Shown in pieces: positions 8,097-8,246 of a stretch of DNA of 37,605 bases. The position numbers and the translations under genes were made by a program. This DNA comes from an uncultured Bacilli bacterium (GTDB lineage: Bacteria; Bacillota_I; Bacilli_A; RF39; UBA660), in assembly GCA_947623825.1 (NCBI GenBank), contig CANQHQ010000010.1, forward strand, positions 1-37,605, in the 5' to 3' direction. Within the stretch, counting starts at the first letter, position 1. Each line of letters opens with the position of its first letter. The notes under the pieces are model-generated. The model saw only the letters and a list, made by a program, of their open reading frames with translations, had not been told where the DNA came from and ran no database searches.

Positions 8097-8144
8097 TTAA
8101 AAAAGAGGCAACAAAGACACTAGGTTTTATGTCTTTGCACCTCT
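8097..8144 (-). terminator. Terminator in the recombinase leader (attenuator)
   Basis: On the minus strand, AGAGG and then CAAAGACA pair with TGTCTTTG and then CCTCT, followed by TTTTTT only a few bases before the recombinase frame opens and about 27 nt before its start. It is a strong intrinsic terminator inside the 5' leader. Its 5' arm can alternatively pair with the leader-peptide region at 8187-8200, giving a mutually exclusive antiterminator. Confidence 0.75.
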
Positions 8145-8177
8145 AAAATTCCAGTATGATAAATTATTTGTTTTATA

Positions 8178-8195
8178 TTAACCCCACAAAAACAT
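8178..8195 (-). CDS. Five-residue leader peptide MFLWG
   Basis: A six-codon frame (ATG TTT TTG TGG GGT TAA) sits between the recombinase promoter and the leader terminator. It has a good AAAGGAAG ribosome site about 5 nt upstream. Its start region (minus strand of 8187-8200) is complementary over 14 contiguous bases, with one G-U pair, to the 5' arm and loop of the terminator. The placement and pairing are those of ribosome-sensing attenuators. The peptide itself resembles nothing I can name. Confidence 0.6.
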   Translation of the reverse strand: MFLWG

Positions 8196-8218
8196 AAAAC
8201 TTCCTTTATTGCTTTCCT

Positions 8219-8246
8219 ATTATAGATTCTTTTAATGTAAAGTCAA
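8219..8246 (-). promoter_or_regulatory. Promoter of the recombinase leader
   Basis: TTGACT (8241-8246) and TATAAT (8219-8224) with 16-nt spacing on the minus strand. Transcription would begin near 8212 and give a leader of more than 110 nt that contains the MFLWG peptide and the terminator. Confidence 0.7.

Follow-up and report, generated by a model that had tools for sequence, protein, structure and literature searches.

In the pyrBI leader of Escherichia coli, the terminator hairpin cannot form when a translating ribosome has moved into its region, with UTP sensed through pausing of RNA polymerase, and ermK, vmlR, and msrD are inducible resistance leaders that carry a short leader ORF and a terminator. 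For integrative elements, Su et al. reportedly described in 1992 an attenuator with an orf12 leader for tet(M) of Tn916, and the control of large serine recombinases is usually discussed in terms of directionality factors and promoters. The closest described arrangement is that of pil1 and pil3 in Streptococcus gallolyticus. In pil1, genetic analysis showed that a leader ORF with its stop codon within or close to the premature terminator gives high expression, and that one stopping at least 28 nt before the terminator gives low expression (PMC3894217).

The leaders described herein precede large serine recombinase genes of mobile elements in uncultured gut-type Bacilli and, judged from their sequences, are probably a variant of this known type of attenuation. 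Our starting point was a contig of 37,605 nt (CANQHQ010000010.1, hereafter the window), in which all of the features described below are on the minus strand. With pil1 and pil3, the recombinase leaders share a promoter, a leader ORF with a ribosome site, and a stop codon in or near the terminator, and in both the sequence of the peptide is not the signal (PMC3894217). The two differ in that pil1 is switched by the number of GCAGA repeats, whereas the recombinase leaders contain no repeat array and a hairpin hides the start of their ORF. Further differences are the gene downstream, which here encodes the serine recombinase of a mobile element, and the subtype found in the window, which, unlike pil1, has no ORF reaching the terminator. 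As in pyrBI, a ribosome in the terminator region would stop the hairpin, but no sensor based on UTP or on pausing was seen here. A short leader ORF and a terminator are also common to ermK, vmlR, and msrD (for msrD, see PMC10314930); in the recombinase leaders, however, neither a conserved stalling peptide nor a conserved antiterminator was seen. In Tn916, too, a leader ORF (orf12) and terminators control genes of an integrative element, although that leader reportedly precedes a resistance gene and answers tetracycline and other translation inhibitors (Su et al., cited in PMC9154091), whereas here it is the recombinase gene that follows the leader, and the element contains no recognized resistance gene. 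No description of such a leader for serine recombinases was found in the open-access literature, most subscription papers being outside the scope of the search.

Promoter, terminator, and recombinase

The recombinase of the window (8070–6184) has Resolvase, Recombinase, and zinc-ribbon domains (PF00239/PF07508). Its true start is most likely at 8070 (MNEEKK, after AGAAAGG), since nearly all homologs begin there; the start at 8097 in the list of ORFs is merely the first possible codon, assigned mechanically. Upstream is an intrinsic terminator (8144–8099), composed of a hairpin (8144–8104) and a T-run (8104–8099). The initial annotation had put it a few bases before the coding region, and while the terminator itself was borne out, the probable start lies about 29 nt past the T-run. 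The hairpin has a calculated energy of -19.4 kcal/mol (determined on the identical copy in locus L044), and two terminator-like sites were found in the region versus 0.2 expected. The promoter proposed for the same strand is also present, at 8246–8219 (TTGACT at 8246–8241, a 16-nt spacer, and TATAAT at 8224–8219), with 11 of 12 matches to the consensus. Promoter-like matches are common by chance in AT-rich DNA; this one is nonetheless kept in the leaders of homologs. Searching the window against Rfam at the gathering score returned only tRNA, and no known leader family was matched.

Eighty homologs of the recombinase were fetched, and their leaders were read from them. A strong hairpin followed by a T-run stands just 5' of the gene in 76; in three of the remaining four (L042, L073, and L083) the gene is interrupted, and the last is on a contig without the 5' end of the gene. 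The order promoter, leader, intrinsic terminator, recombinase persists in essentially all homologs, even at recombinase identities as low as 42%, and the arms of the terminator covary. Because this order is conserved, attenuation of the recombinase is very likely, and the region of the window is very likely a real transcription attenuator before the recombinase of a mobile element. This part of the initial annotation stands, while the peptide that it named as the sensor and the sign that it gave to translation find no support in the relatives.

The leader ORF in the family

The analysis covered 125 distinct homologous leaders and, in a count by cluster, 48 leader clusters. In 86 of the 125, an ATG with a strong ribosome site opens a leader ORF, different from the five-codon frame of the initial annotation, just past an early hairpin, P1. 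These ORFs are mostly 19–27 codons long, and 77 of the 86 have their stop codon in the apex of the terminator hairpin (0.2–0.7 of the hairpin), with five stopping before the apex and four running beyond it. Counted by cluster, a strong-site ORF is present in 36 of the 48, and it stops in the apex in 31 of the 36 (3.7 expected, P about 3e-27) and reaches the terminator hairpin in 35 (5.7 expected), the expectation being obtained from shuffled ORF bodies with a random frame. When the same arrangement was sought before 30 other serine recombinases of the class, as a control, none had it. The family as a whole thus shows the pil1-type arrangement, that is, an ORF with a ribosome site and a stop within or next to an intrinsic terminator.

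The peptides themselves are unrelated. For example, MKRSLNDINTTYLDFIKRCQRHKNI (L056), MKNKHNLPKIYNIELFEESVVFRLY (L028), and MLLKYCLYNYLIKNKSVNDI (L117) all stop in the apex of the terminator. Substitutions are spread nearly evenly over the three codon positions (315/296/377), from which we conclude that constraint falls on the frame and the stop and little on the peptide. The start of the ORF is frequently occluded: in most ORF-bearing leaders, start-proximal hairpins pair the ribosome site (0.6–0.98) or the ATG (0.5–1.0). In most cases P1 covers the ribosome site in leaders of type II and the start codon in those of types I and III. In the ORF-bearing relatives of the window leader, the start codon is held in the 3' arm of P1, which reads ATGAAAC.

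The promoter, P1, the position of the ORF, the position of its stop, and the terminator are therefore conserved features of these leaders. We consider it somewhat probable that the region is an attenuator holding the recombinase off by default and that across the family its terminator is gated by ribosomes, with the start of the leader ORF hidden. The promoter would make a short leader RNA, in which P1 would occlude the ribosome site or the start codon of the 19–27-codon ORF and so make initiation rare. A ribosome that does initiate would enter the terminator, stop in its apex, and physically block the hairpin, letting RNA polymerase read into the recombinase; the content of the peptide would hardly matter. 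Both the melting of the terminator by the ribosome and the limitation of initiation by P1 are inferred from this arrangement. Since a ribosome reaching the terminator would prevent the hairpin, translation would promote expression. The sign would thus be opposite to that of the initial annotation, in which a ribosome on the leader favors termination: the conserved ORF ends inside the terminator and predicts read-through when translated.

The leader of the window

The leader of the window does not contain this ORF. It has ATATAAAAC where relatives have ATATGAAAC, so that the ATG of the leader ORF is replaced by ATA; no frame opening with a normal start codon extends to the terminator, and the longer frame begins with ATA. 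The loss is not a local defect, as the ATA-type leader is shared by about 30 of the 76 homologs, including some whose recombinases are only 62% identical. These leaders, which we call subtype Ia, keep P1, the terminator, and a complementarity between two segments, A and C.

Segment A (8200–8187) is the 5' arm of P1, and segment C (8137–8124) is composed of the 5' arm of the terminator (CAAAGACA) and the first bases of its loop, TAAAAC. As originally noted, the two can form 14 contiguous pairs, one of them G-U. Segment A has two partners, however, because it pairs with segment B (8176–8170, ATAAAAC), the 3' arm of P1, as well as with C; the initial annotation had overlooked the pairing with B. 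Folding agreed with two states. In a partial transcript ending before the 3' arm of the terminator, A:C is the minimum-energy fold (z = -2.4), and masking A in the fold series brings back the terminator path; in the full transcript, the terminator plus the local A:B hairpin wins. Among 22 leaders of type I, the A:B pairing is kept in 100% of the cells and A:C in 95%. A:C shows no covariation among them, the pairing being invariant and no double change being found, and the complementarity is absent from leaders of types II and III. In the window, which is alone in this, a mere 1.6 kcal/mol separates the two complete folds; in the type I homologs the A:C state is less favorable than the terminator state by about 12 kcal/mol. 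The proposed exclusion between A:C and the terminator thus finds no support from covariation.

As the window copy has no leader ORF, the mechanism proposed for the family cannot act in it unchanged, and how this copy is controlled is less certain. The five-codon frame MFLWG (ATG TTT TTG TGG GGT TAA, 8195–8178), whose ATG is within segment A, does exist with AAAGGAAG preceding it as a ribosome site, as first described, but its stop is 33 nt before the terminator hairpin, away from the position seen in the pil1 type. Because a stop that far upstream goes with low expression in pil1, termination would be the default here. We expect mostly termination with rare read-through, perhaps tuned by a transient A:C pairing and not by ribosome control through MFLWG.

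A stronger form of this idea gives translation no role at all in subtype Ia: a transient A:C pairing would compete kinetically with A:B and the terminator and set a basal level of read-through. In Ia, segments A, B, C, and D with the terminator hardly vary, unlike the remainder of the leader, and the loop bases UAAAA, which are dispensable for the terminator and complementary to A, are kept in Ia and Ib and lost in Ic, whose leaders have strong ORFs. With this complementarity retained, a kinetic antiterminator is conceivable in Ia. On the other hand, an invariant pairing offers no test by covariation, the loop bases may be kept for another reason, and the terminator clearly wins thermodynamically in the homologs; we regard this explanation as unlikely.

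Another explanation, which we consider improbable, leaves the leader ORFs as incidental: the terminator would insulate the recombinase from host transcription (from the tRNA operon or from p91, the first gene of the element), or the leader would be a trans-acting short RNA. Terminators near the ends of Tn916 do function as insulators (PMC11658703), and termination is predicted to yield a discrete RNA, roughly 110 nt long. Insulation, however, does not account for a strong promoter placed between p91 and the terminator and aimed at the recombinase, nor for leader ORF stop codons lying in the hairpin apex far beyond chance.

The initial annotation had taken MFLWG as the sensor, a ribosome on it covering A and causing termination, and poor translation freeing A to pair with C and allow read-through. 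The frame with its ribosome site is found in the window and in a subgroup of close relatives. Elsewhere its counterparts are MFLWG, MFLRG, MFVGLI, MFCGVNIKQS, MFGGVNVKQS, MFL, and others, which differ because the T and G runs vary in length; the ribosome site is absent in many relatives, and no such frame was found in leaders of types II and III. A programmed frameshift or slippage on these T and G runs, extending MFLWG into the terminator, was also rejected, because among 25 Ia leaders a frame stopping in the apex exists only in the window (identical in L044) and in L079. Although A:C is the best fold until the 3' arm is made and the two complete folds of the window are close, the MFLWG reading is very improbable, failing by its own standard because the frame is not conserved in homologs, in length or in ribosome site, and being further opposed by an A:C pairing that is missing from types II and III, does not covary, and is energetically inferior in type I homologs.

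The mobile element

The element is about 5.9 kb long and extends from the 3' end of a tRNA-Thr gene (8696) to a conserved ACTCGCACCA near 2786. The 3' CCA end of this tRNA-Thr(ggt) (8696–8769) forms the left boundary, and the right end is conserved (2786–2873). Between them are p91 (8313–8588), of 91 aa and conserved in this place, the leader itself, the recombinase, an ORF of 61 aa, a MobV-like (Mob_Pre) relaxase (4349–5692; PF01076, 2.6e-16, with MobV below its cut-off), and a 462-aa protein without family match that is possibly cargo (2900–4288). With a recombinase and a relaxase between defined ends and no mating-pore genes, the element is, as far as its sequence tells, an integrative mobilizable element. 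In nearly all loci p91 separates the leader from the tRNA gene upstream. Its product matched nothing in Pfam, PHROGs, NCBIfam, or PADLOC, and its location suggests that it serves the recombinase as an accessory or directionality factor. That it might be a C-terminal remnant of a recombinase was ruled out by tblastn.

Two other boundaries were considered and rejected. An end inside p91 was hinted at by an apparent junction at 2556–2564, which belongs to a decayed second, related element (2150–2797) adjoining the first. This remnant, which resembles L069 and L080, consists of a broken copy of p91 fused to the distal part of a different element. A boundary at the terminator was hinted at by L007, L012, and L014, and was discarded because these loci carry an extra gene lying between promoter and terminator, the true left end being the 3' end of the tRNA. 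In these three and in L122, L123, L128, and L138, a gene for a protein of ~190 aa, with its own promoter and of no known family, takes the place of the leader downstream of p91, and its stop codon is at the base of the terminator hairpin.

A tRNA gene is found upstream in 57 of the 73 homologs with enough upstream DNA (Gly 19, Thr 13, Leu 12, Cys 4, Met 4, Arg 4, and His 1), and its end is usually some 600 nt away from the recombinase. The junction is exactly at the encoded CCA, and the element side is constant. The element of the window is at a tRNA-Thr and the 99.9% identical element of L044 at a tRNA-Leu, so that the CCA ends of different tRNA genes apparently all serve as targets for a single serine recombinase.

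Distribution and exchange of the leaders

Relatives occur in uncultured Bacilli, e.g., Candidatus Onthousia. Of 288 genomes of the order, 55 were matched by a covariance model of the type I leader, and every one of them belongs to the bacterial family of the window; a sample of the class gave no matches outside that family; a model of type II matched 43 of 146 genomes. Searches of plasmids and phages for the leader gave weak, short chance matches or none, and no relative was found in the viral contigs searched. In sequences of sufficient length, the leader is generally followed by a gene of this recombinase family, 42–94% identical, and the other cases are interrupted or decayed copies, with one real exception, in two genomes (L149 and L169). 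There, a leader-like hairpin and an ORF ending in the apex precede a gene for 207 aa of no family, adjoining a gene like that of a tyrosine integrase.

The type of leader does not track the recombinase tree, and this conflict indicates that leaders have been exchanged between elements. Conflicts were seen at L009, L022, L027, L055, L057, L063, L065, and L079; for instance, L057 combines a recombinase only 62% identical with a leader of the window type, and L009 one 93% identical with a leader of the ORF type.

Separately, in six loci (L042, L073, L083, L090, L104, and L122) the recombinase is interrupted at the codons of its catalytic motif YIRVS. Inserts covered by enough sequence usually encode a serine recombinase, but of a different kind, as if the active-site codons of one mobile element were the target of another.

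Significance

Taken further, the proposed gating by translation would mean that this family of mobilizable elements, which target tRNA ends, couples excision or integration to ribosome traffic: the recombinase would be transcribed only if a ribosome passed the occluding hairpin, began on a disposable leader ORF, and arrived at the terminator in time. In the parallel subtype of the window, this would have been replaced by an RNA-only switch. We offer this broader reading tentatively, as one that has a reasonable chance of being right but less than an even one. The 125 distinct leaders form a large natural set for testing the pil1-type mechanism, and, if the reading is true, movement of the element would be tied to the translation state of its host.
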